Of a stretch of 64,000 bases of DNA, positions 20,420 through 64,000 are shown in pieces. Position 1 is the first letter of the stretch, and every line of letters starts with the position of its first letter. Source of the DNA: Meghimatium bilineatum (Eukaryota; Mollusca; Gastropoda; Stylommatophora; Philomycidae); assembly GCA_034231615.1 (NCBI GenBank), contig CM067311.1:27122015-27186014 (forward strand), in the 5' to 3' direction. The notes beneath the pieces were generated by a model. The model did not search any database. It worked only from the letters and a program-made list of their open reading frames with translations, and was not told where the DNA came from. The position numbers and the translations under genes were made by a program.

Positions 20420-20521
20420 ATGTCAGCAGACCAAGACTGGAGTGAGGCAATAAAAGCCAGCATTGAAAATGCAGAGGTTTTTGTCCCTTGTGCATCCAAT
20501 AAGAATCAACGAGATATACAG
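20420..20521 (+). CDS. SENP6/7: SENP6/7-like exon 1 (start codon)
   Basis: Codes 34 residues from ATG at 20420 (MSADQDWSEAIKASIENAEV...) and ends in phase 0 at CAG|GTTATT. An in-frame TAA at 20411-20413, three codons upstream, supports this ATG as the first in frame. A TTAG at about 20393-20396, after an AT-rich stretch, could be the acceptor joining an upstream 5'UTR exon, so the transcription start may lie further left. The peptide is short and amphipathic, and I recognise no domain. Confidence 0.62.
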
Positions 20522-23500
20522 GTTATTTTTTCTTCTTTTGTTTTAAAACTTGTAACGTATTTATGCTAAAAAGACAAATCAAGAAGTGTTTCGATCAATA
20601 CATGTCAAAGAGGGCTGGTACCTAACAGCATCATAACAAGAAAGCTGATTTTTTGGGTCATATCTTCTCGTTCGCAGTTTGACATGTCTACACAGCAAGT
20701 CCTGTTTTCTTAATAAATACTGCTGTATTTGAAAGCTCCTCAGTGCTCCCATACATCTTTCTGTGGATATCTATCTCTGTGGGCCAGTGTTCCTTCCCGT
20801 AACTGGTTTAGTGTCTTGCAGGATATGTTCAGCGGTCTGTGCTGCCTGCCCACAAGGGCACAGTGTTGATGGGACCAATCTTAGTCTATTTAAGTGGCTG
20901 TTTAATCTGTTCTGTCCTGTTCTGAGGCAGAAGATAATAACCTGCTCTGCTCTGTTTAGATAGTTGTAATTGTTATATAAAAAGACATATAACAGTAAGG
21001 AAAGATTAACAACTAAAGGCAGAGCTAATTGCTACAGGGAAAGAGAGCGCCAAGACGATGATTGTGCAGTGATATATCAGATTGTTTAAACATGTTTCTA
21101 GCTATGACAGGTCAATACGCCCAGAATTGCTGAATGTTCAGAGAATCCATAAAGAAATCCTACGTTCATTATCACATGATGATAATGATTTAGAAGATAC
21201 TAGCTTGTTTGACAAAATATGGCAGATAGTCAACAGTGTTGCTGATACACAGTATAGCAGATACAATGTTGTGGAGTTTAGTGGTCACCTACACTACCAG
21301 GGTGATCGGTGAAAATTCCAGGGAAGGTGATATACAGATGGGTCGGTTTTGAGACACATCAGGAGTGCCTGGGCTCAAACGACAAGCATTTTGGCAGTAA
21401 CTAAAGCTTTGCAATGGTTGTGCTCGCAGACTATCTGCGAGCATGCCTGCATACTCAATAACTCGATGAGCATGATTGTGAAAGTTCAGGAGGGGTACAT
21501 TCGGGAACAGTGACTGGATGCAGTGAAGAATTCCTGTATGCGTAAATTGACTTTCATTTTTGTGCCGGGACATGCGGGAGTCCGGGTTAATGAGAGAGCA
21601 GATAGGTTTGCTACACACGCTGCTACTATGGCTGTTGGTGGAGCGATGGATCGAGCAGAAATTTTGAAGCCCTGCGGGAAAAAGCACAAACAAATAACTA
21701 TGTGACAGTGACTCTTGTTCCATGACTAGAATAAAGGAATTTGGTTTGAAATGGGGTGCCGCTAGAAAGGAGTGGTTTCATGGGCAAGAAAGAATGATGG
21801 TCAATCAACTGTGTACTGGGACCGTCAGTCAACGTGTAATGGCGGCTACACTCAAGGAGAGATTTGAGCACCTATGGACTTGTCCGGAGTGCAGTGACAA
21901 TGATCCAACGATTAACTAATTACCAGGCACAACACAGGATGACTTGCAGCAATATTTGAGTACAATAATATAATGTATTAAGATTAAAATTACTGAGCAA
22001 ATTTTAGCAAATAAAACATTTTATAAACATTGGTACTGTATATTCTGTAGCATTAATACAGTAATGGTGTGCCTATCACTGTTTTATAAATTACTTGGAA
22101 GATAAGGTGAATTACTTATGCTTAGTGTACATACCCAAAAACAATATCGTTACTCTTAGAGTACATATCCAAAAACAGTATCATTACTCTCAGTATAGAT
22201 ATCCAAAAACCACATAGTTACTCTTAGTGCACATATCCAAACAACACATAGTTACACTTAGTGTACATACCCAAAAAAATATTGTACTCTTAGTGTACAT
22301 ACCCAAAAAAATATTGTACTCTTAGTGTAGATACTGAAAAACAGTATCATTACTCTATTGTCTTTCCCCAGGTGGTTTGTTATCCACTCTTGCAGTTAAG
22401 CATAGGGGTGATTGAAGCTCGAGCTTGCATTTTAGAGCCAGATGTGTGACCTTGGCTGTGTTATGAATGTGTTTGTTCAGGATATCCCTGACGTTTTCTA
22501 TTCATCTTATCTTTACATCATTACTCTTAGTGTAGATACCCAAAAACCACATTTAATTTTAGTGTAGCTATCCAAAATAAATAAACCATATCAATATGGT
22601 AAACTCTTCAAATTGAGATTTATCCTGGTTTGTCTTGTTTAAATGACTCAATGTAAAAACATTACTGCAAATCTGTCTATTATGTGGCTTGCTATAAACT
22701 AATAATTAAAAAATAGATTTTAAGAACCCTGCAAAGATATTTGGGACCAAAGAACTCTAAGACAATGCTAGAGTTCTTCCATAAGATTTGTCTGATGGTG
22801 TAAACATCAGTAACAAACAAAAGAAAATATTTTGAGACATGATTGCTTTATTGGTTTAATTAATGATTGACATGGTCATTTATGAATCATTCAGTTGCAT
22901 AGTTGCAATTTCTTGTAAGATGTATTTACTTAATTTCTTTCAGGCTGACTTTTTACCAACGTCTTCTCAAAGTCCAGGAAATTCTCCTCAGAGCTCACCT
23001 GACAGTCATCAGACACACCTTCCACATGCACATTTTCATGCACGTTTATGCTCAAATTCACAAGATCAGCGTATTTCCCAATCATGTGCAACCATACCAA
23101 ACACATCTCAGAGGAGTGAGCAGACAGCAAATGGTGAAAAAAATAATACTTTCCTCTCAGAATCTCCGCAAAATTACTGCCCAAAAACCCAGCAGATACC
23201 CCAGAAACTAGGATCTCCAAAACGAAATGAATCAAATGATAGCAGTCATTTTCAGAATTCAAAGACACATCCCCACCCTCAGGAATCTCCTCCACGAAAT
23301 CTTTCACAAAGTCAAGAGGGAACATTGAATGGTAATCAAGCAGATAGAAACGTTACCACTATGATACCTTCTTTTTCCACTAGACAACCACAAAACCAAT
23401 CTACCGATCATCATCAAGAACATCTATCCTCTTCACATCAACAGAGACCAGCATTAAATATTTCAGGTGCTCCTCAGCATCATCATGCCACAAGAATGGG

Positions 23501-26500
23501 GTTACCTCCAAGACAAGCTAACATTCAACAAGCCAGATACGGTATTCCACGTCAAATTCGACCTCAGCATTCGTTTGTTGGTGTTAGACAACCACATCAT
23601 ATACAACGAATTCCACAGCAACAGCAACAAAGGTCTCTTATTCCTGGTCCATCCAGTGCTTCTAGTGTGTATCCAGGTAAAATTATAAGCACTACACCTA
23701 CCAGCCATCCTCAGCCTACTTTCACAGGTCAAGTTCAAGGTTCACGGCCTATTGTTCAGAATCAAACACAGGTATCCATGAACATAACTGGTCAAGCGTT
23801 GCGACCTCCACCCCCACAGAGAAATGACAATATTTTAGGTGTCAATAGGATGTCACAACAGCAACTTCAGCACAAAACATATTCAGATCCACACCATCAG
23901 GGTTCACCTCAATTTAACCAAGATAGAGAATACGAGGGAAGACATCCTCAAGAATATGAAGATGGGGGAATGTATTATGATGATGAAGAGGGCGATGAAG
24001 AAATGGATGAGATAGATGAAGAGGAAATGGAGTATTCAGGATTTCATGGCAACCTTGACTATGGCTATCCTTCGAGTGACAGTGATGAGCTATCTGAAGA
24101 GTGAGTAATAATTTCTTTATTGTATTCCTTTGTCTTTTGTTACAGTTCAGCAATGTAGTTGAGTTATTTATCAGCATCGTGTGTGTGACTTCTTCTTCTT
24201 CTTCTTTCGTTCACTTGAAACATGTCTATATCTGCAATTCTGTCTCCTTAATAAAACTCACTGTCTTTTGTAGTTCATACAGTGTCCCATAGAGCTTTGA
24301 TTCCAGTGTTGTTTCCTCTGGCCAATATGTCTGCCTCAGAGTTTCATGCTCAGAACACTCTTGAAGTATATGTTTGGCACTCTGTACTGCCTGTCCACAT
24401 GTACACATGGCAGTGTTGCCAATCTTGAACTTTGTATACATGTGACTGCGGAGTCGGTTGTGTCCTGTTCTGAGACGTAGAATTATAACTTGTTCTGATC
24501 TGTTCATAATGTGATAGTCATCTTGTGTTGGTGTTTGTGGCTTTCTTATTGACTTGATCATCTGTTTTTTCTGATGGTAGGTGATTGGTATATCTGGTTG
24601 ATCTTCGGCAGCACCTTCCTTAGCCAGTTGGTCTGCTTTTTCATTTCCTGGTATTCCACAGTGAGAGGGTATCCACTGCATGGTTACCCTATACTGGTAA
24701 GACAATTCGCTAAGTAGTTTTTTCAAGTCTGTTAGTTTTCCAGACTGGAGAGCTTGAAGCACTGACCTTGCATCTGTCAGGAATACCACAGGCTGTAGGT
24801 CAGAGTTGGAGTTCAGCAGTTTTTTAGCTGCTACAGTAATTGCCTGGATTTCTGCATCATAATTATTGCAGAATTTTCCTGTCGGTGTTCTGATTGTATC
24901 TCTAGGCTTGTGTGGATATTCTATATATACACCTGCACCTCCATTCCTCACAGCATTCTGTGCTGACCCATCTGTGTATACTCTGACCCATATATCTTGT
25001 GGATATTCCTCGTCCAGGAAACTGAGGGTGACTGTCCTCCGCTGCACACTGTTCTGTTCGTCCTCGCTTAGTATTCCTTTCACATGGGTCTGAATGTATA
25101 TTGGCATTCCATGCCTTTCACTCCATGGGGTTTGTTCTGGTACAGACCTTAAGGAGCTGTCAACTTCAGGTAGGTCTGTAAGTTGTCTACGGAGTCGTTT
25201 AGCTTGATGGATAAAGCTGCTTCTTTTCAGTCGCCCCATTGCTAGGTTTTGGAATCTTTCCTTCATTGGATGACTTGGCATACACTGAAACTTTTCCGCT
25301 TGAATTAGTACTTTTGTGTCTCTGCGTTCGCCAAGTGTTTGCATTCTTCCCATTTTCTGCATCTCTGCTATGGGTGTTGATTTCATTGCTCCCAACATTA
25401 TTCTAAGTGCCTGGTTTTGCACTTTATCTAGATCTTGTAATGTGGTGTTTGATGCAGGACACCACGCAGCTGAACCATATTCCAGGTGTGGTCTTATGCC
25501 TTGCTGGTAAACTTTACTGAGTATATTCCCACTGGCTCCCCATGTGGTTCCACTTAGTTTTCTCAGGATAGCTAACTTCCTCCTGGCTTTTGTTGTTGCT
25601 TTGTTTATGTGCTGCTTCCATGTCAGCTTATCATCAAAAGTAACTCCGAGGTATGTGGGTTGTTTGTCTTCTTTCAAGAGCTCTCCGTCTATCTTGATAT
25701 GACCGGCTTTTTGTTTTGGTGAGAGGGTAAAGAGTGTAGTGCTGCACTTATCTGTGTTAATGCTGACACACCATCTATTTGCCCATAAGGTTAGGGCATC
25801 GATAGCTCTTTGTATTTGTTTAGTGGCCACTGTCGCATGTTCTTCCGTGCACCAGATCACCAGGTCGTCAGCATACATTGCCACTTTGATCCCGTGTGGT
25901 AGTTCAGCAACTAGGTCATTGATGTAAACCAAGAAAAGTGTGGGTGACAGGACTCCTCCCTGGGGGACTCCATGACGCAGTAGGACTTTCTTGCTTTTGC
26001 GACCATCTAATTGTACCCTGGCTCTTCTATTATGCAGGTATGCTTTTACCCATTTGTACATTCTTGAGCTAACCCTGCAATTTCGCAATTTCTTTAGGAG
26101 TCCTTCTTTCCAGACCTTATCAAATGCTTTCCTAAGGTCTATCCATGCTGCTAGTACCAGTTTCTTATCTTGGAAGGCATCCTCAATCTCTTATCGTGTG
26201 TGTGACAACCAGGACCTGGACTTCTAATTCAGGGTGCAAAGAATAGGGCCAATGTCTTCTTTCTAGGCATGTTGTATGAGGTGACTAAGGAAAGTTAGGG
26301 ATGGGGGTTGTCACATGTAAAAAAGTCATTGTCACTGCAGGTCTTTCCCCGATTTCTTACTTTTGTCTTCTGTGAAATGGTCCCCATGGATGAAAGAGAG
26401 ATAAAGGCCAGTGAATATTGCATTTTTGTCTGTTTGTGGCAGACTTCTAGGCAGCAGGGAATTGCTAGGTGTGCCATCACTACTGATGGGTCAATAAACC

Positions 26501-38500: not shown

Positions 38501-39277
38501 AAGTTTTATGTTGCTAGGATTAATACTTTGATAATAACACCATTGTAAGAAATAAAATGGTAGGGATACATAAATATAGGTATAATTGATGCCAATAAAT
38601 AAATAATATTATTGAGACAAAATGATAAATGATGTTTGACTAGAAAGTCTTCATCAGGACGAAAGACAAAAGAAACCTTATATATGGACAAACAATGTGA
38701 GACAATGATAAAATGGAAGAGGAGGAGAATAAACATAAGAAAGTAATAAGTAGAGTGAAGGTAAATTTCAAAGCCTGATGCAGAACATGAAAGGAGAAAT
38801 AGAAGATAAATGAGAGAAAAGAAGGAATGATGGAGAGAACATGAAGTGAAAGTATAAATAAATGAGATAAATAAATAAAATATTCTTAGCTCATGAAGAA
38901 ATAAACCATAAATGAGAGATAGCTGAAAACACATTTTGGACTGGATAAGTGAGATCTTATGACATATTTATCTCCAGTGTATCTGGTTGTTTGCCTACCC
39001 CACAGATTTATCTCAATGAAAACGAAAGAAATAATTTGGATACCTTCTCTCATCTTTCTCCATAACTTCTCACCCATTTGTTTTTCAACTTTTAGAACTT
39101 CAGATGATGCATCACTCAATCAGTCAACATACATAAAACCATTACCCCAAGGTAAGTTATATTCTTTGTTAATCATTGAGTCTGATATTTTTCTATCTTG
39201 TAAGACTACAGAACATTTTCTAATGGTATTTAAAATAGTGGCTCTCAAATTTTCTTCCTTGGTCTCTCTCTTTCCTC

Positions 39278-39335
<58 letters not shown>

Positions 39336-57300: not shown

Positions 57301-60300
57301 ATTTAGGTTACGTGTTGATAATTTGTGGACAGAACTTTAATTAGCATTCAGAATATTTAGAGCTTTCCCTAAAGGTACAGGGTTTTTGCGTAACAGTCAA
57401 CACTAGTTCTATCAGCTCAGATTTCCATTTGACTTCAGCATCTAGTGACTGAGTTCCATCTCCGTGGCAAGGATCTGGCCTTCATGAGAAGAAACATGAT
57501 CAGATTAATTTGTATCCAGCCTTCAGATTGTCTAACCTAATAATGATACTCATACTTTTGTATACTATCACATATGTAGGTAGACACCCCCCCCCCCCCC
57601 ATGAGTAAGAGGTTTCTTATTAAGATCACCCATGGGGAAACCAGGGCTTTGACTTCTAGATCAGGGTGCAAAATATAGGGCAACCGTATTTTTTCTAAGC
57701 ATGTTGTAGGAAGCGACTAATTAAAGGTAGGAAATGGATTGATAACCTGTCACTTGTGGAAAAGTTATTATCACTGCATGTCTTGCTTCGATTTATTACT
57801 TTTTTCTTCTGTCAAATGGTCCCCATGGATGACTCAGTCTCCTGTGTGTCCCGAAGCATCATCTGCAAGAGCTGCACCATGACGTACATAGATGAGACTA
57901 GTAGGAGGCTTGCTGACCATTTCTGCGAGCACCTACACAGCATCAAACACCATTCAGGCTATCCTGTGGACATTCATTTCAACGGCACAGGCCATTGAGG
58001 CGCCCAGGATGTTCAGGTGACGGCCATTAAAGCATGCTTCTCTGATGACCGAACCCGTCTGGATCTTGAGAACTGTTATATATACGAATTTGACACTCTG
58101 AAGCCTTTGGGTACGGATGAGCGCTTGACATATGCATAATATCGGGTTGTTCCGTTATTTCTCTGTCTCTTTTTCACATGTATTAGGGTCTGTTTTTGTA
58201 TACTTCCTATTTCTGTACATTTCCTGTTTGTGTCACCTTTGACCTCATTTCTATCCTTTTGGCCATTTCACTAGCCATGTGAATGCAAGTTGTATCGTCC
58301 CTACTTGTCATTTTTGATTTATATGTGTATGTTATCCATGATAAAGGCCTTACGGTCGAAATGTTGATTTGTGTGTGTGCCTATGTTTGTTTCATATTAT
58401 TAGCAAAACTTTATTATCCCGTTTCACGCTTCACATGACTGAGAGAAGCAGACCAACAAACATTGTGTGTGTGTCCTTTTGTGACAGACTCCTCTATGTG
58501 GTTGGGAATGTCACTGTGCCATTTCTGTCAAATGGTCAACATATCTGATGGAAGAATGATTAGTCAGTTGGCCTAGATGTATATGTTAGGATGTGATGAT
58601 CCTGGGATACTGTCCCACTTGAATACCCTCCCTTCAGGGACTACATATACCTCGATAGGCCCCCTTAACACAACCATGCCTTTGAGACCACAAACCTTAT
58701 GTGTTTTACCTAGGTTACTCAACTGAGGAGGTTCTATGCTTTTGTCAGAAAGGTTATGGACTATTAAGAACTACCTGCTCACAGCTAAAGGAATTATTTC
58801 GTCATCATCTTGACATTGCACATTGTTAAGAGTTCATGTATTCTTGGTATGAAAGTTCTGAATAAAACTCATGCAACAATAGGAAGTAAGAGCTAACTGC
58901 TCATAGTTCCTTGGAATCGATAGCACGGATAACATTAAAAAATCATATGTAGATATTTAATTTGTGTGGTTGGTTGCTGATTCTGTGGTACATGGGCTCA
59001 TGCTCTTTGACCCAATACCATTGTGTGATTTATGCATTTGAGCTATTATATTTTTTTTCCATATTAAATGTTTCATTTATCTGGCCTTGGATTTAAGCTG
59101 GTAAAACATGTTATATAGTGAAATCGCTGGAGGACAATGTGTGCTGAAGCATCCAATGTGGTAGCCTTATGACCTTGACGGGTTACAGGTTTATGGATGG
59201 GTATATGTAATCTATTCGCTTTTCAGCGTCAGGGGTAGAAGATATTTTCTGGAGACATCGTTTTCGTGGTAGACCTCTAGGTCTGCCTTCACTGTATCTG
59301 TGTAGCATAGCTTGCCGTGGTATACTGTCTGATGGTAGTCTGCTGATGTGGGCAAACCATTTGATTTGTTGTCTCTTAATAAATTCCAAGATTGGGGTAG
59401 ATATATATCATATGTGTCATTATTCTGATTGTATTTCAGACATGAAACAGAAAATGGTTGTGATAATTATTGAATGCTTTAACTACATGCCACACGAGAT
59501 GCTGAGAGAAACCCTGTCACTGTGGGCTGACATGAATCATGTAGAGGATGATTGCTTCATTGAGGAGCTGACTGAAGAGAGTGCTAATGATCTCTTGATT
59601 CAGTCAGCACCACCAGTTCTTACAGCAGACGTTGAAAGAGATGTGGTCAAGTTTAAACGAAGGTAAGATTGATTGCTGCATCTTAACTTTTCCTCTTTTC
59701 TGCAATGGACTTCATGTTGTTTATTCTGCGTAGTGTCACAAGGGTCTAACCTTCATGAGAAGAAACATGATCAGATTAATTTGTATCCAGTCTAACTGAA
59801 TGATGATACTCATGCTTAGTGGTAGTTAGTGTCATAGTGGTAGTTAATGTGATAGTGTCAGAAGGCTTTTTGTGGCATTGTTAGTGGCTGAAGTAGCACT
59901 ACACAAGCTCATTACAGATCTCCCAGAAATTCTTTGGCAGAAACCATGATACATGGGAAAATGCTGCTAAAACTAGAGCTATAATAATATGTAATCACTG
60001 CAGCAAAACTAATCAAACAGATGAAACTTGATACAGGCTAATGAAATTTTGCTAATCACTGGTAACACACATAATAACACAAATTGATGTTTTGACCAAA
60101 AGATCTTTATTAAGAACACAAGTAAAATGGCACTATCCAATGATGGGACAGTTCCATTTTACTTGTCGTGTTATGTTGTGTTCTTGACAAAAGACATTTT
60201 GTCGAAACTTTTATTTGGGTGCTACCAGTGATTAGAAAAATTTAATTACTCTGTTCCAAATTTCGCTTGTTGAACTAGAGTGACAGGGTGCTCTGCAATT

Positions 60301-62153
60301 TTTAAAAAAAACGGTACAGTATCTAGTGAAACATCTGCAGCAGCTCATAGGCGGATAGAAAGATGTACAGAAAGATATAGACAGATCAAGCACCATCTTA
60401 AGTGATCATCCTATGTCCAACCTAAGGACCAGGACCCTTGGAACTTGTGTTATGAATTTGCTCTAGAGACAAAACAAATGTATTTTTCCGAGACAAAATA
60501 ACTAAACTTACAGGTCGACAAGAACCAGTGTTGACACTGGTAAACTAGCATATGCTTGCATGGTTTGGTTATATATTCTACATATACTCTACAAATTGTT
60601 CAACACTTGCCACATAGTTAGTTACTTTGTTAATGACTTACTTAGTTAGTTATTAAGTTAGTTACTTAGTTGCCTGAGTAGTTACTTAGTTATTTACATA
60701 GTTACTTAGTTTTGTACTTAGATACTTAGTCAGCTAATTAGGTAGTTACTTAGTTATTTAGTTAGTTAGTTCCTTTTGGGTCAAAGATGGTGCACAGGAT
60801 AGTAGTAATTTCTTTCTCTGTTGAGCTCCTCAACGTGCAGTTGCTGTAGTTCTTCTGTATTGCTTATGACCCAATTGATCTTTCTCTGTTTGTTTGTTCT
60901 ATGTAGTTTATTTTGGGCGACCTACTTTTCTTTTTCCCTCTGCCTTCCACATGAAGGTTTGTTTGGGAAATTTGTTTTTATCCATTCTAAGTACATGGCT
61001 AGTGTAATTCTAACAACTTCGTTTTATAAAATGATATTCAAATTCTAGTATTTTGACCAAAAGACCTTTAAGAACAAAAGACCTTTATTAAGTTTATTAA
61101 AACATTTAGAACTTTATTACTTTTAAAACTTGTAAAACAAAAGACCTTTATTAAGAACATAAGTAAATGGCACTATTCATCTGAGTTTTAAAACTTTAAA
61201 AGTTTTAAAAGTAATTAAAACTAGTATGGTTCGGACATGTATGTAGGCACGATTCCTTGTCAAAAACAATACTGCAGGGAACTGTCACGGGTGGAAGAAG
61301 CAGAGGCATGGATATACAAATAAAGGCATGGACAGACAACATCAAGAAATGGACAGGGCAAGATATTTCCACACTCATCCGCATCGCTGAGGATAGAATT
61401 TGCTGGAGGACTCTGTGTGCTGAAGCATCCAATGTGGTACCCCTACGACCCTGAAGGGTTACGGGTTTATTGATTGATTCAAATTCTTGGTTTGTTTCTT
61501 ATCTCGGTTTTAAAATCTATCCATTTTATGTTCAATATTCTTCAAAGATACTTCACAATTTAACAAGTTAGAATGACTTGCCAGTACATATAAATCAATG
61601 CTACTGTTTCTGTAACAAAGGATATTTCATGGTGGTGACTTGTTTGTTTAAGCTACCGATTAGCTGCAAATAGCAAGAAAATAAGTACACAACATACTTC
61701 ATTTTGAACTGGAAATGGAAACCACATACATATTTCAAAGAAAAATCATAATGCAGCAAACGGGATTTGAACCAAGTCCACTCAGATGGCACCCACTTGC
61801 CTCTCAAGTCAATGTGTTTTCCATCATTGACCATACTGCATTCCATAAAGGAGAATGAACTAGGTTGCGAGACAAATGGGTGCTATCTGAGTGGACCTGG
61901 TTCAAATCTTGTTTGCTGCATTATTTTTTTAAAATAATAAATCCTCGGTGCTTTTATATTATTCATACATATTTTAAAACAATTCTTGTGTATTTTAACT
62001 TTTCCCTATACTCACTAGGTACCTGAGGGATACAAACAACATGCATTCAGTACCCAGAATTCCAGGTTCACCGTCTGACAGTACAGATAATGAACCAGAT
62101 AGCACATCTAGCTCTCCTCCAGAGATTAAACATTACTTTGGTTCATCAATCAG
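20420..62153 (+). CDS. SENP6/7: SENP6/SENP7-like SUMO protease, N-terminal part (17 exons, 3' end outside window)
   Basis: Overall span of one spliced gene; exons are listed separately. The 17 coding segments sum to 5,645 nt (1,881 codons plus 2 nt), every junction is GT-AG and every phase matches. SENP6/7-type enzymes are Ulp2-class cysteine proteases that remove or edit SUMO chains, mainly in the nucleus. The assignment rests on the order of features in the last five exons, which mirrors the family: basic tract, SIM-like VTISSDEDE (compare IILSSDDDD in vertebrate SENP6), an IRSVRVG segment, QPVLFLFLSP (compare KLPVVFLQ), DMKQKMVVIII, then a Ser/Pro linker. The protease domain itself is absent here. 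The N-terminal part alone is longer than whole vertebrate SENP6 (about 1,100 residues). The alternative, that exons 1-10 belong to another gene, is unlikely given the unbroken phase but not excluded without transcripts. Confidence 0.72.
20690..20965 (-). mobile_element. Diverged LINE 3' fragment (post-RNase H region)
   Basis: On the minus strand it shows the same cysteine-cluster and EQVIIL-type region as the LINE at 24226 (bases around 20810-20965 give a CPCGQAAQ-like peptide). Indels prevent a continuous frame. Lies in intron 1 just after exon 1. Confidence 0.6.
21060..21930 (+). mobile_element. RNase H LINE relic, third family
   Basis: Scattered frames in intron 1 on the + strand. FIFVPGHAGVRVNERADRFA (21523-21705) is the RNase H C-terminal motif with conserved His and Asp. 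After a frameshift, VNQLCTGTVSQRVMAATLKE and FEHLWTCPECSD (21722-21919) form the tail. The middle is damaged and no RT is seen. Confidence 0.75.
22110..22355 (+). repeat. Tandem array of ~40-bp units, intron 1
   Basis: Six to seven units of the type TTACTCTTAGTGTACATACC plus CAAAAACAATATCA. After about 155 bp of other sequence, a further 1.5 units appear at 22510-22577, so an insertion may have split the array. Confidence 0.85.
22944..24100 (+). CDS. SENP6/7: SENP6/7-like exon 2: Q/S/P/H-rich disordered region with acidic C-terminus
   Basis: Codes residues 35 to about 420. The acceptor is TTTCTTTCAG|GCTGAC (phase 0) and the donor GA|GTGAGT (phase 2). The sequence is dominated by Ser, Gln, Pro, His and Asn with no recognisable fold, and ends in an acidic, Tyr-containing stretch (MYYDDEEGDEEMDEIDEEEM). 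It is continuously open for 386 codons despite its length, which supports purifying selection on the frame. The acidic end leads straight into the acidic start of exon 3, so the two large exons form one disordered module. Confidence 0.8.
24190..26192 (-). mobile_element. Young 5'-truncated LINE with intact RT and RNase H
   Basis: Lies antisense in intron 2. It is flanked by a perfect 14-bp target-site duplication, ATCGTGTGTGTGAC, at 24176-24189 and 26193-26206, and its 3' end is a short (GAA)n tail (read as TTC at 24190-24206). The body starts inside the reverse transcriptase just before motif A, so the endonuclease and 5' end are missing. The undamaged frame and perfect duplication indicate a recent insertion. 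RNase H after RT points to the I/R1-type side of the non-LTR tree; clade placement needs a tree. Confidence 0.93.
24226..26181 (-). CDS. LINE reverse transcriptase-RNase H polyprotein (5' partial)
   Basis: Open from the element's 5' truncation to a stop at 24226. It begins in RT motif A (WIDLRKAFDKVW, with the catalytic Asp), then VPQGGVLSP and YADD (second catalytic Asp pair), a thumb region with YLGVTFDDKLTW, and a C-terminal RNase H. Counting from codon 26088, all RNase H catalytic residues are present: D373 (YTDGSA), E413 (AEIQ), D439 (LTDA), H476 (SHCG) and D486 (NEKAD). A Cys/His cluster (MCTCGQAV...KHILQEC) near the end may bind zinc. No frameshift or internal stop. It makes no complete element because the endonuclease is gone. 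Confidence 0.92.
   Translation of the reverse strand, partial: DAFQDKKLVLAAWIDLRKAFDKVWKEGLLKKLRNCRVSSRMYKWVKAYLHNRRARVQLDGRKSKKVLLRHGVPQGGVLSPTLFLVYINDLVAELPHGIKVAMYADDLVIWCTEEHATVATKQIQRAIDALTLWANRWCVSINTDKCSTTLFTLSPKQKAGHIKIDGELLKEDKQPTYLGVTFDDKLTWKQHINKATTKARRKLAILRKLSGTTWGASGNILSKVYQQGIRPHLEYGSAAWCPASNTTLQDLDKVQNQALRIMLGAMKSTPIAEMQKMGRMQTLGERRDTKVLIQAEKFQCMPSHPMKERFQNLAMGRLKRSSFIHQAKRLRRQLTDLPEVDSSLRSVPEQTPWSERHGMPIYIQTHVKGILSEDEQNSVQRRTVTLSFLDEEYPQDIWVRVYTDGSAQNAVRNGGAGVYIEYPHKPRDTIRTPTGKFCNNYDAEIQAITVAAKKLLNSNSDLQPVVFLTDARSVLQALQSGKLTDLKKLLSELSYQYRVTMQWIPSHCGIPGNEKADQLAKEGAAEDQPDIPITYHQKKQMIKSIRKPQTPTQDDYHIMNRSEQVIILRLRTGHNRLRSHMYTKFKIGNTAMCTCGQAVQSAKHILQECSEHETLRQTYWPEETTLESKLYGTLYELQKTVSFIKETELQI
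26222..26725 (+). mobile_element. Interspersed repeat R490 (type unknown), intron 2
   Basis: About 490 bp: TTCTAATTCAGGGTGCAAAG, AGGCATGTTGTATGAGGTGA, AAATGGTCCCCATGGATGAA, TGGGTCAATAAACCTGGCAG, AGGATACTGCAGCACTGGAA, and ACCTGCTGACAGCTAAAGAG then ATTATTTCAT. Copies at 15200-15700 and (split) 57640-58810. No coding frame. It carries a diverged SINE A-like GGCATGTTGTATGAGGTGACTAAGG block near its 5' end. Confidence 0.7.
26951..27345 (-). mobile_element. Old diverged LINE 3' fragment, same family as 24190-26192
   Basis: Resembles the last ~400 bp of the intron-2 LINE, including YDYQIMSTSEQVTILHLRKG in a residual frame at 27074-27268, corresponding to the post-RNase H region. Several indels. It lies about 760 bp beyond the young copy in the same orientation but has no shared duplication, so it is a separate, older insertion. 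Confidence 0.7.
28105..28215 (+). mobile_element. RTE-like LINE 3' scrap, intron 2
   Basis: About 100 bp matching the last part of the 2157 family (CAGAATGCATCACCAGGGCA, then TGTAGACAACCTTTAATGCC). Confidence 0.55.
28570..30708 (+). CDS. SENP6/7: SENP6/7-like exon 3: long Q/P/S-rich disordered region with 7-residue repeats
   Basis: Codes residues about 420-1133 (714 codons) in one unbroken frame. Junctions are AACAG|A (completing GAA) and CAA|GTAAGT (phase 2). It opens with a charged segment that looks helical (ESSLLEELRCCEDDIRYQEI; VDPEEIEEML) and then an acidic patch. A long Gln/Pro/Ser/Asn-rich tract without predicted fold follows. A helical-looking piece near residues 850-870 (LARLNVMYMQQILDKEIMAK) interrupts the disorder and may be a binding motif. 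Residues 998-1067 are ten tandem IGNTTQQ-type repeats. Such composition is common in chromatin and condensate proteins; its role here is unknown. Confidence 0.82.
30302..30511 (+). repeat. In-frame 21-bp coding minisatellite, ten units (IGNTTQQ)
   Basis: Ten 21-bp units encode IGNTTQQ x3, ITITTQQ, IGNTTQQ x5 and ICITPQH. Units differ mainly at synonymous sites (ACT/ACC/ACA Thr, CAA/CAG Gln), so the array is not freshly homogenised, yet the peptide is preserved. The 21-bp period keeps the frame when units are gained or lost. Confidence 0.95.
30940..31130 (+). mobile_element. SINE family C body copy, intron 3
   Basis: ACTCCCTGGGGATTATCGCT, GCTGTGAGTGGTACAGGACA and CAAGTACAATTAAGTCAACG follow the body of the 7178 copy. 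The tRNA-like head is not recognisable. Confidence 0.58.
31215..31860 (+). mobile_element. RTE-like LINE fragment, intron 3
   Basis: Decayed copy of the 2157 family: IITNDGRCETEVKG, CYIYSILIYGSETWTMSKQL and DAFEM.IYRRIGRTSWNKNQ are readable on the + strand with several frameshifts. Ends TGATGATTATG. Confidence 0.78.
31872..32085 (-). mobile_element. SINE family A copy, intron 3
   Basis: Reverse copy from ATGCTGAATAGCACAATGTA through CAGCTTGGCTGCAATATCTG to TTATGGCATCTATGGCTGG. It follows the RTE-like fragment directly. Confidence 0.68.
32090..32909. other. Intron 3 tail, nothing recognised
   Basis: Unique-looking sequence between a SINE and exon 4. No open frame or repeat identified. Confidence 0.45.
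32910..33091 (+). CDS. SENP6/7: SENP6/7-like exon 4
   Basis: Codes residues about 1133-1194. Acceptor is CTATGTCAG|G (completing AAG Lys); donor is AAAG|GTAGAT in phase 1. Unlike the flanking low-complexity exons it has a balanced, fold-like composition (KCIITGKGKQQGLTVNMVYQ, SLVLALWNGERFEDLK), with alternating hydrophobic strands and a conserved-looking WNG turn. It may be a small beta-rich module; I do not recognise the family. Confidence 0.78.
33735..34160 (+). mobile_element. mariner-type transposase relic, intron 4
   Basis: + strand, with frameshifts: YHDFIPTG.TVN, then LLHDNAPAH, TLEQHQYSPDLALADFFLIA, QFNDAYDVTNVTKQLREVSK and LWQKYVFAKRNCFEGN. HDNAPAH and YSPDL..DFFL are hallmark mariner-family blocks around the second and third catalytic acidic residues. 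The N-terminal half and inverted repeats are not recognisable. Confidence 0.82.
34440..34525 (+). mobile_element. RTE-like LINE 3' scrap, intron 4
   Basis: GAAATCTGTTGTAGCCAACC followed by GATGTTGAGACAGAACTTGATGAT corresponds to the 3' end of the 2157 family. Confidence 0.55.
35190..35290 (+). repeat. 37-bp tandem repeat, about 2.7 units, intron 4
   Basis: GTTGTCATAAAGTCAAATAC plus ATGTATGGATAGTGATT repeated in tandem. Ends about 120 bp before exon 5. Confidence 0.85.
35409..35570 (+). CDS. SENP6/7: SENP6/7-like exon 5 (Lys/Glu-rich)
   Basis: Codes residues about 1194-1248. Acceptor is GTGTTCAG|TA (phase 1) and donor ATCACTG|GTAAAA (phase 1). The peptide starts VPLVNVKEHEKLQAEEVKGK and continues highly charged, probably helical, then becomes polar. 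VPLVNVKEHE is a weak SIM-like hydrophobic-acidic pattern. Confidence 0.74.
35763..35871 (+). CDS. SENP6/7: SENP6/7-like exon 6
   Basis: Codes residues about 1248-1284. Acceptor is TTTATTAG|CC (phase 1), donor ACTAG|GTCAGT (phase 2). The peptide is Gln/Thr/Ser/Pro-rich (GQSAPTTQSGLLPNEKSGPD...), consistent with linker. The call depends on phase continuity and good splice sites; no domain is visible. Confidence 0.66.
35928..36110 (-). mobile_element. SINE family A, partial, intron 6
   Basis: TTCTTCTGATTAGCAGGATG then TAGTCCAGAAAATAGGATGC and GATTTACAGCCACATTGAGA. The 5' blocks are decayed. Confidence 0.6.
36560..36670 (+). CDS. SENP6/7: SENP6/7-like exon 7
   Basis: Codes residues about 1284-1321. 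Acceptor is TTTTCTCAG|T (phase 2), donor CAGAG|GTAATG (phase 2). The peptide contains TCPSTVLVGSSKFQAEFMHT, a mixed hydrophobic sequence between linkers. No family recognised. Because entry and exit phases match (2/2), the exon could be skipped without breaking the frame. Confidence 0.7.
37264..37366. repeat. (ATATT)n microsatellite, about 20 units, intron 7
   Basis: An uninterrupted pentanucleotide run of about 100 bp with sharp edges (GCAGTATATT... then ATTATTATATATAAAA). Perfect units imply recent slippage. Confidence 0.95.
37745..37800 (-). mobile_element. RTE-like LINE 3' scrap, intron 7
   Basis: CATCATCATCAAGTGCCGTC and AACGAAGGTTGGCTGCAAT are the reverse complement of the 2157-family 3' end. 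Confidence 0.55.
37933..38013 (+). CDS. SENP6/7: SENP6/7-like exon 8
   Basis: Codes residues about 1321-1348. Acceptor is GATCATACAG|T (weak polypyrimidine tract, phase 2), donor CAACAAAA|GTATGT (phase 2). The peptide includes SAPESHPYPGLNTSIEFGQS. Short, but open and phase-compatible. Symmetric 2/2 phase makes it a possible cassette exon. Confidence 0.6.
39096..39151 (+). CDS. SENP6/7: SENP6/7-like exon 9 (micro-exon-sized)
   Basis: 56-nt exon for residues about 1348-1367. The acceptor follows a C/T-rich tract ending TTTTTCAACTTTTAG|A (phase 2); donor is CCAAG|GTAAGT (phase 1). The peptide is TSDDASLNQSTYIKPLPQ. A long CT-dinucleotide run starts about 140 bp downstream. Confidence 0.62.
39289..39333 (+). 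repeat. (CT)n microsatellite, intron 9
   Basis: About 22 CT units inside a longer pyrimidine tract (39262-39348), 110-200 bp downstream of exon 9's donor. Confidence 0.95.
39885..40043 (+). mobile_element. SINE family B, intron 9
   Basis: GTCGGGCCATTGGCGCAAAT, AAAACGGCGACACAACGCAT, TTCCATTCTCTGGACTACAT, AGGACCATGGTCCTAATACA, GAGATATCCAGTGGGAGTTT, then GAATGAACGG and an (AGA)n tail. Its last ~90 bp resemble the 3' part of family A, so the two share a tail. Confidence 0.75.
40265..40870 (-). mobile_element. RTE-like LINE fragment, inverted, intron 9
   Basis: Reverse complement of the 2157 family, starting at the 3' end (ATCATTATCAAGTGCCATCT) and running through LKTLLNGKVLWRRARYNRDT and the thumb region to about 40870. 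Many indels. Confidence 0.75.
40965..41507 (+). repeat. Minisatellite of about 28-bp units ending at exon 10's splice acceptor
   Basis: About 19 units of the type TTTGTTATCTATGATGTTCTTGGTACAG, varying from 24 to 32 bp; early units have GTAAATACAG. The final unit runs into CCTTAG|GTACACC, the exon 10 acceptor. Most units end in GGTACAG after a T-rich stretch, which resembles a 3' splice site. Confidence 0.92.
41508..41578 (+). CDS. SENP6/7: SENP6/7-like exon 10 (acidic), acceptor at the edge of a minisatellite
   Basis: 71-nt exon for residues about 1367-1390. Acceptor is TACCTTAG|GT (phase 1), donor AATGAG|GTAATT (phase 0). It encodes an acidic peptide (QPVEEEEDDFLFKKPFNE). The whole upstream intron end is the 28-bp tandem array, so branch point and pyrimidine tract must lie within repeat units. 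Confidence 0.74.
41790..42020 (+). mobile_element. LINE family B 3' terminus (copy 3), intron 10
   Basis: Diverged copy with ACTACAGGGAACAGTCGAAG, a corrupted IAEDLNHWRILC region and a shortened tail GTGGTACCTCTGTTCGTTAT. Confidence 0.65.
42060..42660 (+). mobile_element. LINE RT-thumb remnant, intron 10
   Basis: Readable with frameshifts: LNHVSEFIYLGSIFSEDNKL, YQCQTWHFTKTLAKRITVCE, IKCLRKTMNV and RQQARWFDHVMRMEPTQPSL. An RTE-type C-terminal region from a lineage distinct from 2157. It ends where the piggyBac-like element at 42667 begins. Confidence 0.68.
42667..43601. mobile_element. piggyBac-like element 2, inverted copy of element 1, intron 10
   Basis: Begins TTAACCTTTAGGACCCTACG and ends CAGGGCTCTAAAGACTAA (terminal TTAA decayed to CTAA). 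The interior matches 18591-19499 in reverse orientation, sharing for example GGTCTAGGCC/GGCCTAGACC and the ATCATTTACCCATGCCA region. Confidence 0.82.
44147..44897. mobile_element. piggyBac-like element 3, intron 10
   Basis: TTAA at 44147 and 44894; the right end is ACACAGCGTGCTAAAGGTTAA and the left TTAAGGCCCTAG. The interior shares GCGATAACTTTTTTGTT and the AAATAAAGAATTAAATTC motif with element 1. An open frame at 44623-44976 has no recognisable domain and runs off the element. Confidence 0.68.
44980..45050 (+). mobile_element. Second-family LINE 3' scrap, inverted
   Basis: CAAAGGGCATGGGTCACTGG followed by AACCAACCAACC is the reverse complement of the 3' terminus seen at 8583, 18004 and 58965. 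Intron 10. Confidence 0.6.
45906..46269 (+). CDS. SENP6/7: SENP6/7-like exon 11: C4 zinc-binding-like motif plus RG-rich tract
   Basis: Codes residues 1391-1512. Acceptor is CCATCAG|AAT (phase 0), donor CTCCAG|GTCAGT (phase 1). It begins EDYFRVCQYCGYTSKNFKRC then EGC: Cys 1398, 1401, 1411 and 1414 form C-x2-C-x9-C-x2-C, the spacing of a compact zinc ribbon. A polar linker follows, then an RG/RGG tract at about 1483-1504 (RGRGRGSRGRSGRTRGGGLR), the type of sequence that binds nucleic acid and is methylated on arginine. The pairing of a C4 knuckle and RGG box inside a SENP6/7-like protein is not something I know from vertebrate members. Zinc and RNA/DNA binding are inferences. Confidence 0.82.
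46316..46515 (+). mobile_element. tRNA-derived SINE, family D, intron 11
   Basis: TGGTACGGTGCTGGGCTGTG and the B-box-like CCGAGTTTGAAACCCG begin it; the body AGGCAATTATGCATCCGGAC, AAAATCACTGCAGCCAAAAA and GCTGGGTTGATGGC recurs at 56110-56335. It starts only 47 bp after exon 11's donor. Confidence 0.65.
47813..47971 (+). CDS. SENP6/7: SENP6/7-like exon 12: basic NLS-like segment
   Basis: Codes residues about 1512-1565. Acceptor is TTCTTTTAACAG|GG (phase 1), donor GAGCCAG|GTAGGA (phase 1). A Ser/Asp-rich stretch (possible casein-kinase sites) is followed by dense basic residues at about 1542-1560 (KKRPARPKSK and PRKRKK), an apparent bipartite or doubled nuclear localisation signal. This fits the nuclear location of the SENP6/7 family. 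Confidence 0.82.
48179..49202. mobile_element. piggyBac-like element 4 with a transposase N-terminus remnant, intron 12
   Basis: Near-perfect ends: TTAACCTTTAGCAAGCTAAA and, inverted, TTAACCTTTAGCAAGCTGTG, with TTAA on both sides. The interior holds ATGGATGTCGATTCCGATGA at 48471, encoding MDVDSDEEEIVPFLEA, the acidic start typical of piggyBac-type transposases, followed by a large deletion and the A/T-rich 3' region shared with the other copies. Confidence 0.8.
49208..49400 (-). mobile_element. SINE family A, partial, directly after piggyBac-like element 4
   Basis: CTGGTTAGCAGAATGTAGTC, GCATGGTTTACAACTTAGCT and TGTTGACCCTGTAGAACATT are reverse SINE A blocks with insertions between. Confidence 0.55.
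49671..49932 (-). mobile_element. SINE family A copy, intron 12
   Basis: Full-length reverse copy from CTTTAGCGTTCATTCTCAAA to CTCCCCTTTCAGGTCTGGCA, including TTAGTCGCTTACTACGACAT. Confidence 0.75.
50370..50495 (+). mobile_element. SINE family B copy, intron 12
   Basis: ATCGGACCATTGGCACAAAT, GGTACATATCCATTATCTGT and ACCATTGTTCTGCTACAAGT. The tail is decayed. Confidence 0.62.
50738..51012 (-). mobile_element. SINE family A copy, intron 12
   Basis: Reverse copy with ATGCTAGCAGTGTGTAGTCT, GTTTACAGCTTGGCTGTGAT, TGATCCTCTATGGAATAGAA and CCATTTCAAGCCAGGCAACA in order. Confidence 0.72.
51172..52275 (-). mobile_element. Degenerate copy of the intron-2 LINE (RNase H portion)
   Basis: Same 3' end as the element at 24190 (GAA-type tail, then the CTTGAAACATGTCTATAT region), followed by matching RNase H and thumb sequence. 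The longest remaining frame (51923-52150) encodes RSSFIHQAIRLCRQRTDLPE and IQTHMKGILNEDEQNSVQRR, near-identical to the young copy. Small deletions and stops break the RNase H catalytic region. It is truncated near 52275, upstream of the thumb start. Confidence 0.85.
52330..53165 (-). mobile_element. RT tail/RNase H LINE relic carrying a nested foldback element
   Basis: Minus-strand peptides ARLDKIQNEAM (about 53110-53150; end of RT thumb) and EVWALIADNTEENDVIIYT and NLKMEIKAMMEAL (52430-52570; RNase H start and Glu motif) show a decayed LINE. The two halves are split by the palindromic insertion at 52828-53023. Intron 12. Confidence 0.65.
52828..53023. repeat. Long palindrome (foldback element) nested in a LINE relic
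   Basis: Two arms of about 90 bp are inverted copies: left TGAGCTCAGGCATATCTTAA through GACCTCTGCTC-complement to about 52918; right from about 52932 to TTTGCCTGAACTCA at 53023. The centre is only about 12 bp. Both arms contain the ATTCATTCATTTT and GATCTCTCCAATTCTGTC modules. One arm also occurs alone at 14318-14395. Confidence 0.85.
53283..53458 (+). CDS. SENP6/7: SENP6/7-like exon 13: SIM-like motif
   Basis: Codes residues about 1565-1623. Acceptor is TTTCTGATTTAG|TT (phase 1), donor GATGAG|GTAAAT (phase 0). It opens with VTVTISSDEDE, a hydrophobic core followed by Ser and acidic residues: a textbook SUMO-interaction motif pattern, placed where vertebrate SENP6 has its IILSSDDDD. A Ser/Pro-rich linker follows, then INAFGRFRRVLMEDE. 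Confidence 0.82.
53565..54018 (+). mobile_element. RTE-like LINE fragment, intron 13
   Basis: The frame at 53676-54011 encodes YRRIGRTSWKEKELNNEVLK, IKIRQIKYFGHIKRHDTLLK, TLLEGKVKGKRARGRQRYVW and SVAANLYCRNGTR. Here the KIR codon is followed by CAA where the 2157 copy has TAA, showing that the stop in that copy is a later mutation. Confidence 0.82.
54225..54840 (+). mobile_element. Second Penelope-like fragment, intron 13
   Basis: GGAGACTTGGAGACCCATTC encodes the GRLGDPFCEHLYSMKKT region of the GIY-YIG nuclease, and the right end TTATTAGCAAAACTTCATTA matches the right end of the copy at 57841. The region between is diverged. Confidence 0.58.
55584..55815 (+). CDS. SENP6/7: SENP6/7-like exon 14: poly-acidic run and start of the pre-catalytic region
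   Basis: Codes residues 1624 to about 1701. Acceptor is ATATTTGTAG|GAT (phase 0), donor GTCAGAT|GTAAGT (phase 1). Gln-rich start, then an acidic run (EEDEDEDDDEDDDDDE), then YEIDIRSVRVGSMRTQPEGP and a beta-type segment (LLINLQGVCFKVRC). The last part lines up by pattern with the vertebrate SENP6 segment around SIRVGTL, which precedes the protease domain. Confidence 0.84.
56105..56335 (+). mobile_element. tRNA-derived SINE, family D, intron 14
   Basis: CCAGGTTCAATTCCCACTAT (B box), AGGCAGTTGTGCCCCTTGAC, GAAAATGATTGCAACCAAAA and ACTGGGTTTGTTACATCC follow the 46316 copy. The A-box region is decayed. Confidence 0.62.
56560..56722 (+). repeat. 33-bp tandem repeat, four to five units, intron 14
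   Basis: Units of ATTTCTCCATTATTGTTCTC plus TAATTTATTTCAT. The first is diverged and the last is partial. Pyrimidine-rich, about 270 bp before exon 15. Confidence 0.9.
56991..57176 (+). CDS. SENP6/7: SENP6/7-like exon 15: pre-catalytic region
   Basis: Codes residues about 1701-1763. Acceptor is TTGTCTTCTCTACAG|CT (phase 1), donor AGCACAG|GTATGT (phase 1). It contains EILAQDVEQVKFFSGQTQPV and LFLFLSPECGEILR, resembling by pattern the DLTKCEWCNVRKLPVVFLQ segment of vertebrate SENP6 (two strands and a helix of a PH-like fold, by inference). It ends DDEYFDPSST. Confidence 0.84.
57640..58812 (+). mobile_element. Interspersed repeat R490, third copy, split by a Penelope-like fragment
   Basis: The left part is 57640-57840 (TTCTAGATCAGGGTGCAAAA ... 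AAATGGTCCCCATGGATGAC) and the right part 58430-58812 (GACTGAGAGAAGCAG ... GCTCACAGCTAAAGGAATTA). Together they equal the other two copies; the interior belongs to the Penelope-like element at 57841-58425. Confidence 0.72.
57841..58425 (+). mobile_element. Penelope-like element 3' fragment with GIY-YIG endonuclease remnant
   Basis: The frame at 57756-57998 encodes SIICKSCTMTYIDETSRRLA, DHFCEHLHSIKH and YPVDIHFNGTGH; after a stop come VTAIKACFSD and LENCYIYEFDTLKPLGTDER. This matches the C-terminal GIY-YIG nuclease of Penelope-like retroelements (YIGET.RRL..RF.EHL...HFN..GH). The usual YIGET is YIDET here. It interrupts another repeat (57640-58810), with ATGACT on both sides as a possible target duplication. 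Confidence 0.78.
58965..59105 (-). mobile_element. Second-family LINE 3' terminal scrap
   Basis: About 135 bp matching the last bases of the LINE copies at 8583 and 18004 (GGTTGGTTGCTGATTCTGTG onwards). Lies in intron 15, directly before a scrap of another repeat. Confidence 0.7.
59108..59210 (+). mobile_element. LINE family B 3' scrap, intron 15
   Basis: Begins GAAATCGCTGGAGGACAATG and continues through GCATCCAATGTGGTAGCCTT to the family's GACGGGTTACAGGTTTATGG tail. Confidence 0.65.
59180..59400 (-). mobile_element. LINE C-terminal remnant, intron 15
   Basis: The frame at 59183-59389 encodes FIKRQQIKWFAHISRLPSDS, IPRQAMLHRYSEGRPRG and KRCLQKISS, matching RTE-type pol ends. It sits about 50 bp before the acceptor of exon 16. 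Confidence 0.65.
59440..59662 (+). CDS. SENP6/7: SENP6/7-like exon 16: pre-catalytic region
   Basis: Codes residues about 1763-1837. Acceptor is GATTGTATTTCAG|AC (phase 1), donor AAACGAAG|GTAAGA (phase 2). DMKQKMVVIIIECFNYMPHE followed by an amphipathic helix and FIEELTEESANDLL matches the order seen in vertebrate SENP6 (EEQYIILIFQNGLD, a helix, then FFAKIPFEEANGRL). This is one of the clearest pieces of evidence for the family. Confidence 0.85.
60043..60245. repeat. Inverted-repeat element, intron 16
   Basis: Left arm AAATTTTGCTAATCACTGGT through TTATTAAGAACACAAGTAAA, and right arm (inverted) AAATTTTTCTAATCACTGGT through AAGAACACAACATAACACGA. The loop is about 30 bp. The core GACCAAAAGACCTTTATTAAGAAC recurs twice at 61055-61160. 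Confidence 0.75.
60612..60775 (+). repeat. Degenerate TTAGTTAC-type satellite, intron 16
   Basis: About 160 bp built from imperfect AGTTACTTAGTTAGTT words of 8-12 bp, too irregular to give one unit length. Confidence 0.85.
61040..61215. repeat. Degenerate repeats of the 60043 element core plus TTAAAA-rich DNA
   Basis: AAAAGACCTTTATTAAG occurs twice, with AACATAAGTAAATGGCACTA as in the left arm at 60043. The rest alternates TTTTAAAACTTTAAAAG palindromic runs. Confidence 0.6.
61210..61482 (+). mobile_element. LINE family B 3' terminus (best copy), intron 16
   Basis: An open frame at 61257-61454 encodes GTVTGGRSRGMDIQIKAWTD and RIAEDRICWRTLCAEASNVV, ending PLRP then stop. The tail is ACGACCCTGAAGGGTTACGG then GTTTATTGATTGATTC. 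The best preserved of six copies. Confidence 0.8.
61745..61930. repeat. Inverted pair of tRNA-like sequences (hairpin), intron 16
   Basis: Left arm ATGCAGCAAACGGGATTTGA and ACCAAGTCCACTCAGATGGC; right arm GCTATCTGAGTGGACCTGGT and TCAAATCTTGTTTGCTGCAT, about 60 bp each around a ~65-bp loop. Each arm carries a B-box-like GGTTCAAATC, so these look like two tRNA-derived SINE heads inverted to each other. Confidence 0.7.
62019..62153 (+). CDS. SENP6/7: SENP6/7-like exon 17: Ser/Pro linker, last exon in window
   Basis: Codes residues about 1837-1882. Acceptor is TTTCCCTATACTCACTAG|G (phase 2), donor ATCAG|GTACAC (phase 2). The Ser/Asp/Pro-rich linker PRIPGSPSDSTDNEPDSTSS ends in a hydrophobic-aromatic KHYFGSSI. 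In the family the protease domain follows soon after, so the next exon should start it. No segment in 62154-64000 encodes that start in the required phase. Confidence 0.78.
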
Positions 62154-63479: not shown

Positions 63480-63935
63480 TTATTTGCCCAAACCAATTGC
63501 AAATAGCAGCTTTAACAGCAGCTCATACATATGGAGGACGCTTGTTAGAGCAATCACTGTCACAGAAACTCCAGTTTCATGCTTACAAAACAGAAGCCCT
63601 AACATTGGTCCTATCCTTACGTTTTGCCCACTGTATGTTAAATTCTTTCACAGCACGGTAACACTAGGTCACATACATGTTAACATAACCAAGTAATGTT
63701 AGTCTGTGCTTGTACTGGATTGGCCAGCAAACTCTCCAAATATGAATCTGATTGAGCACGCGGCTGGGATGAACAAACAAAAGGGTTCAATAATGGGAAA
63801 GATCTTGAGCAAACATTTTTGCAGAATAAGTCAGACCCCAAAAATTTTTGACTGCACCTAAGACACCTATGCCAACTTTGTATTGGATACTATTGATGGA
63901 CCCACATTATTACTGATGGCTGTAGCATGATGATA
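63480..63935 (+). mobile_element. Tc1/mariner-like transposase relic
   Basis: Around 63717-63770 the + strand reads LDWPANSPNMNLIEHA, matching the DWPAxSPDLNxIExxW block of Tc1-type transposases. Flanking frames are broken. It lies in the intron following exon 17. Confidence 0.68.
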
Positions 63936-64000
63936 GCATGTGGGAAATTCTTTTACAACTAAAATTTGATTGCAGCTCACTAGCAGGTGATTGCAGCTCA

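Follow-up and report, generated by a model that had tools for sequence, protein, structure and literature searches.

Does the stretch of Meghimatium bilineatum DNA analysed here (64 kb in full, hereafter the window) encode a SUMO protease with a greatly enlarged N-terminal arm, and what is this arm made of? The N-terminal parts of SENP proteases are thought to set their location and their substrates, and, in the portion of the text available to us, an article from 2014 called the selective targeting of SENP6 not understood (PMC4281951). We found that the gene is genuine and belongs to a known enzyme family, and that its arm is unusually long and conserved within the clade. Our comparison separates the widespread pieces of the protein (zinc ribbon, SIM, and PH-like domain) from the mollusc or heterobranch additions, and each can therefore be deleted and tested separately. 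In addition, a duplicate pair of genes provides a natural test of how such an arm changes when the enzyme does not.

Gene structure and protease identity

We examined the window together with 80 kb downstream and 20 kb upstream, taken from a 1.61-Gb assembly. Exons on the plus strand were identified by splice-consensus and codon-bias scoring and chained by phase; two small exons were added from a Candidula protein (P0121). A previous sequence-only reading had counted 17 phase-consistent exons with 1,881 codons, and our rebuild returned the identical chain (20420-62153, plus strand; 1,881.7 codons), with AG/GT junctions and no in-frame stop. That reading had also placed a protease downstream of the 17 exons. 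A protease is indeed there, but its catalytic exons lie outside the window, from window coordinate 66533 onwards, and only the preceding PH-like domain (exons 14-16) lies inside. With exon 5 included, the complete gene model has 26 exons and one final stop codon ending at window coordinate 97652. The window probably covers the initial 16 (or 17) exons of a SUMO protease gene of the SENP6/7 family (Ulp2 branch) that appears to be intact, with nine further exons, including the catalytic ones, extending to 33.7 kb past the window end.

We aligned each exon peptide to eight heterobranch proteins and compared the scores with those of 40 shuffles (10 shuffles for exon 3). This supported 14 out of the 17 exons, with z scores from 5.3 to 109.6, but exon 5 had no orthologue support and exons 6 and 8 were weak. 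Beyond the window, exon 22 was weak (z = 2.3) and the other eight exons scored at least 19. Exon 5 (35409-35570, plus strand) had a z score of -1.2, and P0121 reads straight from its exon-4 equivalent to its exon-6 equivalent; this exon is probably not constitutive. As it is phase-neutral, it can be dropped, which leaves 16 window exons with 1,827.7 codons and a whole protein of 2,256 aa, in which the EFLND motif of the protease stands at residue 1,854.

The earlier assignment to SENP6/7-type SUMO proteases was borne out when we searched solved structures in the PDB with the spliced protease piece. SENP7 was the best match (E = 1.4e-81, residues 1-307), followed by Ulp2 (7e-20) and SENP2 (8.8e-20), with weaker matches to SENP1 (1.4e-17), SENP5 (5.8e-13), and SENP3 (6.6e-8). 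A tblastn search downstream of the window, using the SENP6 catalytic region, detected seven exons from window coordinate 66534 onwards, with E values from 7e-16 to 0.006. The 2,256-aa model contains the motifs EHSHW (residue 1939), MFDSL (2027), PQQSN (2073), and SDCG (2079), which we take to hold the catalytic His, Asp, and Cys and the oxyanion Gln. A variable insert of several dozen residues, also present in relatives, separates the His and Asp exons of the catalytic domain. The C48 domain (PF02902) was found in the four relatives scanned with Pfam, and sequence profiles place a SIM and a PH-like domain ahead of the protease, the fold evidence for the PH-like domain being moderate. A Pfam search of ten open reading frames from the window gave no match above the cut-off. 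Run against the genome, the PF02902 profile matched one place (C1:8239833-8239946, E = 6.1e-4, the match being interrupted by one stop) and missed the present gene because exons were scored singly. According to the available part of PMC4281951, SENP6/7 and Ulp2 take SUMO off SUMO2/3 chains, and SIMs are N-terminal in most SENPs. By analogy with these relatives, the encoded enzyme most likely edits poly-SUMO chains.

All window exons lie on the plus strand. Exon 1 (20420..20521; z = 6.8) has an ATG and a GT donor, begins island A, and aligns with the MSADQEW-type starts of P0001, P0002, P0003, and P0006. Exon 2 (22944..24100; z = 21.7) encodes a Q/P/S/H-rich part of the arm with an acidic cluster at its end, contains island B from ~23982, and has a stop-free counterpart in a second gene copy. 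The long arm exon 3 (28570..30708; z = 65.4), which also has a counterpart in that copy, continues island B to ~28804 and contains islands D (~29819-29920) and E (~30065-30190), supported by module HMMs. Islands B and D appear helix-like by eye. Exon 3 also includes an in-frame 21-bp tandem repeat (30294..30501) of ~10 copies, encoding a Q/T/N-rich heptad. Mini-domain F is encoded by exon 4 (32910..33091). Exon 6 (35763..35871) fits P0121 in phase and junction, with conservation at shuffle level (z = 0.2). Exon 7 (36560..36670; z = 5.3) carries a SKFQAEF motif, the weak exon 8 (37933..38013; z = 2.6) matches P0121 at 54% over 24 aa (E = 0.014), and exon 9 (39096..39151; z = 8.6) carries NQSTYIKPL.

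The arm continues in exon 10 (41508..41578; z = 16.6), which is acidic and then carries a FKKPF motif. Exon 11 (45906..46269; z = 64.8) encodes a putative zinc ribbon, C-x2-C-x9-C-x2-C (~45927-45977), followed by an RG-rich stretch, and exon 12 (47813..47971; z = 22.4) encodes an acidic/serine segment followed by the basic stretch KKRPARPKSKNPTPRKRKK, which resembles a nuclear localization signal and may act as one. The SIM, VTVTISSDEDE, stands at the start of exon 13 (53283..53458; z = 60.6), its first codon spanning the exon 12/13 junction. After an acidic run, the PH-like domain starts in exon 14 (55584..55815), continues through exon 15 (56991..57176), and ends in exon 16 (59440..59662); exon 17 (62019..62153; z = 35.8) encodes the linker preceding the protease.

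Antisense to the gene, intron 2 holds an open frame encoding reverse transcriptase and RNase H (24226-26187, minus strand; RVT_1 E = 3.4e-27, RNase_H E = 4e-16), and a frame of similar appearance occurs further downstream (window coordinates ~79714-83451). In intron 17, a long tandem array that covers 63926-64000 and runs on to ~65330 reads as SSLAGDC repeats; it scores as coding and is probably a satellite. Intronic minisatellites occupy 40957-41502 (28 bp, ending just before exon 10) and 22121-22356 (34 bp).

Arm and protease in orthologues and in a second copy

The N-terminal arm had been assigned to the same gene as the protease, and orthologue searches with the spliced protein agreed with this assignment. 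Each protein search scored ~8,000 candidates. Residues 1-1600 retrieved five proteins at E ≤ 0.001, all from gastropods and all with a C48 domain. Residues 1120-2150 gave 151 matches in a set biased to long proteins (at least ~1,234 aa, or 0.55 of the query length), and the best 120 listed added proteins from Aplysia and, as a partial record, Plakobranchus. Taken together, seven heterobranch gastropod records join arm and protease, one of them being partial at its end. Orthologues such as LOC131936507 (Physella acuta) and LOC101864041 (Aplysia californica) have the entire architecture, islands included, with 63% identity over residues 1120-2150. These two records are the same gene under the name uncharacterized protein, and the Elysia record is named sentrin-specific protease 7. 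Among the best 120 of 2,199 matches in a search for relatives of 410-1,304 aa, a single one came from a heterobranch, namely the Candidula protein P0121, which is annotated as partial.

The M. bilineatum genome contains a second copy of the gene at C22:11649314-11668605 (minus strand; L016-L029), with arm exons upstream. Matches at E ≤ 1e-3 were obtained for 18 out of 24 exon peptides, in the same order and on one strand, and the aligned stretches were free of stops, those of exons 2 and 3 included. Exons 1, 5-8, and 20 went unmatched; this numbering follows the 24-exon list used here, which omits exons 7 and 8 of the final model. The copies were 38-39% identical in exons 2-3; of the eight exons in the protease region, six had 84-95% identity and two had 65-70%. 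A Bradybaena protein (P0004) and the C22 copy have the variant YPPPPAKRLSITT in common. Over 1,799 codons of matched exons, the copies differ by a dS of ~1.64 and a dN of 0.38 (Nei-Gojobori/Jukes-Cantor). The dN/dS ratio was 0.43 for exons 2-3 and 0.10 for the PH-like part, with dS saturated in the protease and exon 4. Purifying selection acts between the two gene copies. The accessible part of one study gives Ks peaks of 1.61-1.71, obtained by another method, for a stylommatophoran genome duplication (PMC9392753); set against these printed peaks, our value of ~1.64 suggests that the C22 copy may stem from this land-snail duplication. A tblastx comparison for synteny gave at least 2,000 matches spread along the entire stretch, which probably stem from transposons and are uninformative.

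Could the arm nevertheless be a transcription unit separate from the protease? The splicing was deduced from sequence, P0121 begins at the exon-4 equivalent, and Drosophila Verloren (Velo) has a 711-aa short isoform that lacks the Q-rich region, according to the available part of PMC8324896. However, arm and protease are united in the seven heterobranch records, the C22 copy carries exons 2-4 and the protease exons collinearly on a single strand, phases agree at all junctions, and in the best 120 of 2,199 matches the partial P0121 is the sole short protein from a heterobranch. We therefore regard two separate units as very improbable, and take arm and protease to be one gene because the seven proteins share the arm and the second copy holds 18 of the 24 tested exons in order. 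Short isoforms may exist alongside the long form, since fly Velo has one.

Arm length and distribution of modules

The sequence-only reading took vertebrates as its yardstick and concluded that more than 1,000 residues had been gained in this lineage. Of the arms compared, this one is the longest, with EFLND at residue 1,854 versus 1,677-1,839 in seven heterobranchs, but this yardstick overstates the gain. EFLND already stands at 1,002-1,438 in 20 gastropods and bivalves outside the heterobranchs (1,058-1,438 in six gastropods and 1,002-1,343 in 14 bivalves) and at 1,202-1,441 in six higher flies. It lies at 760 in a chiton, at 812 and 871 in two cephalopods, and at most at 1,494 in 90 other listed long relatives, three out of 93 having been omitted for want of the EFLND pattern. 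For 109 mostly vertebrate listings among the best 120 of 2,199 short relatives, the median was 681. The gain thus comes to ~240-800 residues relative to other gastropods and ~800-1,100 relative to the chiton and the two cephalopods. The six heterobranch records without a partial mark range from 2,074 to 2,234 aa in total length, and the present protein has 2,256 aa. From the EFLND positions, we conclude that the lineage lengthened the arm, but on an older scaffold; growth seems to have been stepwise, moderate in bivalves and other gastropods and then renewed on the heterobranch stem.

Module, tree, disorder, and dN/dS analyses used a 2,243-aa model (with exon 5, without exons 7 and 8), so residue numbers shift slightly. 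We iterated module profiles against 121 proteins (the best 120 of the 151 matches plus the window model) at E ≤ 0.01 and repeated this on 239 fetched proteins without the window model. Among the 121 proteins, the PH-like domain matched 120, the zinc ribbon 95, the SIM 94, and domain F 18; B, D, the RG/basic stretch, and the linker matched eight each, and A, C, E, and G seven each, all heterobranch. Islands B and D were present in all eight heterobranch proteins, the window included, with A missing from Bradybaena and E from Plakobranchus; at E ≤ 0.01, A, B, D, and E were absent from the other 113 proteins. They again matched heterobranchs only among the 239 proteins, 238 of which matched the PH-like domain. 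By these profiles, the zinc ribbon, SIM, and PH-like domain are widespread in animals, and the islands in exons 1-3 are restricted to heterobranchs among the proteins compared.

All 18 matches to domain F were molluscs, the window included; an annelid protein followed at E = 0.026. The domain occurred in 10 out of 20 non-heterobranch gastropods and bivalves (Gigantopelta, Patella, Mytilus, unionids, Dreissena, Mactra, and Mya). At E ≤ 0.01 it was absent from the remaining ten, the chiton, and the two cephalopods, and is therefore not demonstrably mollusc-wide. The 239 proteins gave 20 matches, including P0126 and P0127. A structure model of domain F is three-stranded (pLDDT 73, core ~85), and a fold search with it gave no match at E ≤ 0.001. 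In a fold search, the PH-like domain showed a moderate resemblance to the PH domains of the FACT subunits SPT16/SSRP1, and Pfam assigned no named domain to this stretch in the four relatives. We did not find the PH-like domain in print as a feature of SENP6/7, and its support is the profile matches reported here. Among the titles and abstract openings listed from the open literature, and in PMC10919355, we found no paper on a mollusc SENP6 SUMO protease and no description of the zinc ribbon, the Q-rich arm, or the PH-like domain.

In a maximum-likelihood tree built from 34 segments spanning the PH-like domain and the protease, the window grouped with six heterobranchs (100/100), as sister to caenogastropods (99/97). 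The heterobranch stem in this tree measured 0.8 changes per column.

Possible functions of the arm and known relatives

The N-terminus had been described as Q/P/S-rich, which our counts confirm: Q, S, and P make up 13.8%, 11.3%, and 10.2% of residues 1-1132. On a crude disorder scale, 46% of residues before the protease leaned towards disorder versus 18% after it. We found one clear conserved SIM, in exon 13; the only other window match in a simple scan was a stretch inside domain F. No HP1-type PxVxL site was shared in the arm, with single occurrences in three out of seven proteins, at differing places.

The proposal that the arm could form condensates as a multivalent scaffold for poly-SUMO substrates draws on composition, namely the Q/P/S richness, the RG-rich stretch in exon 11, and the acidic clusters. 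SENP6 loss alters SUMO-driven nuclear condensates in human cells, but that work, in its accessible part, concerns SUMO chains and substrate SIMs rather than scaffolding by the SENP6 N-terminus (PMC10514054). The one clear SIM lies shortly upstream of the PH-like domain; that only one was clear counts slightly against the arm itself being multivalent for SUMO, and we consider such a scaffold unlikely. Alternatively, most of the arm could be tolerated filler, lengthened by slippage and drift, with only the small islands mattering. The 38-39% identity of exons 2-3 between the copies, the mean column identity of 0.10-0.25 in most 50-residue blocks outside the islands, and the expanded 21-bp repeat fit this possibility, which is nonetheless doubtful: the aligned parts of exons 2-3 in the second copy are stop-free with a dN/dS of 0.43, and total length is steady across the six complete heterobranch records and the present protein.

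In the reading that we consider probable, the predicted protein consists, from N to C terminus, of a long Q/P/S-rich arm with short conserved islands, the small beta domain F, the zinc ribbon, the basic segment, the single SIM, the PH-like domain, and the C48 protease. The enzyme would be nuclear and specific for poly-SUMO. The islands, zinc ribbon, and basic stretch may recruit it to partners or chromatin, the poorly conserved Q/P/S stretches may act as spacers, and the SIM and PH-like domain beside the protease may present the SUMO chain. More tentatively, the whole SENP6/7 protease may have been remodelled on the heterobranch stem. Under this hypothesis, several new conserved docking islands (B, D, and E) would have arisen in the arm as the PH-like and catalytic regions evolved unusually fast, yielding a poly-SUMO protease with a dedicated recruitment platform that this lineage later retained in two copies; domain F would be an undescribed small beta domain that binds a chromatin or SUMO partner, beside a FACT-like PH domain.

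Known relatives have part of this architecture. Vertebrate SENP6 and SENP7 possess the C48 domain, the catalytic residues, the PH-like stretch, a SIM of the IILSSDD type, and, in some isoforms (P0044 and P0073), the zinc ribbon; however, they are mostly ~1,000-1,150 aa long among the rows listed, and domain F and islands A, B, D, and E were absent from the named vertebrate rows at E ≤ 0.01. Other mollusc SENP6-like proteins (Haliotis, Littorina, and bivalves) share the zinc ribbon, SIM, PH-like domain, and protease, but islands A, B, D, and E were not found in them. An LKGNATG motif is kept in several of these proteins, whereas the pattern is absent from the window and the seven heterobranchs. 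The long form of Drosophila Velo has 1,833 aa and a Q-rich arm, as given in the available part of PMC8324896. Fly relatives of Velo likewise combine a long Q-rich N-terminus with zinc ribbon, SIM, PH-like domain, and protease, but the fly proteins compared, Drosophila Velo itself not being among them, had no heterobranch islands. The insect proteins P0111 and P0027 carry a conserved segment, KMLVILVSGEQRLITF...CTVQDLLEQVG, upstream of the zinc ribbon, which by eye looks like a ubiquitin-like fold.
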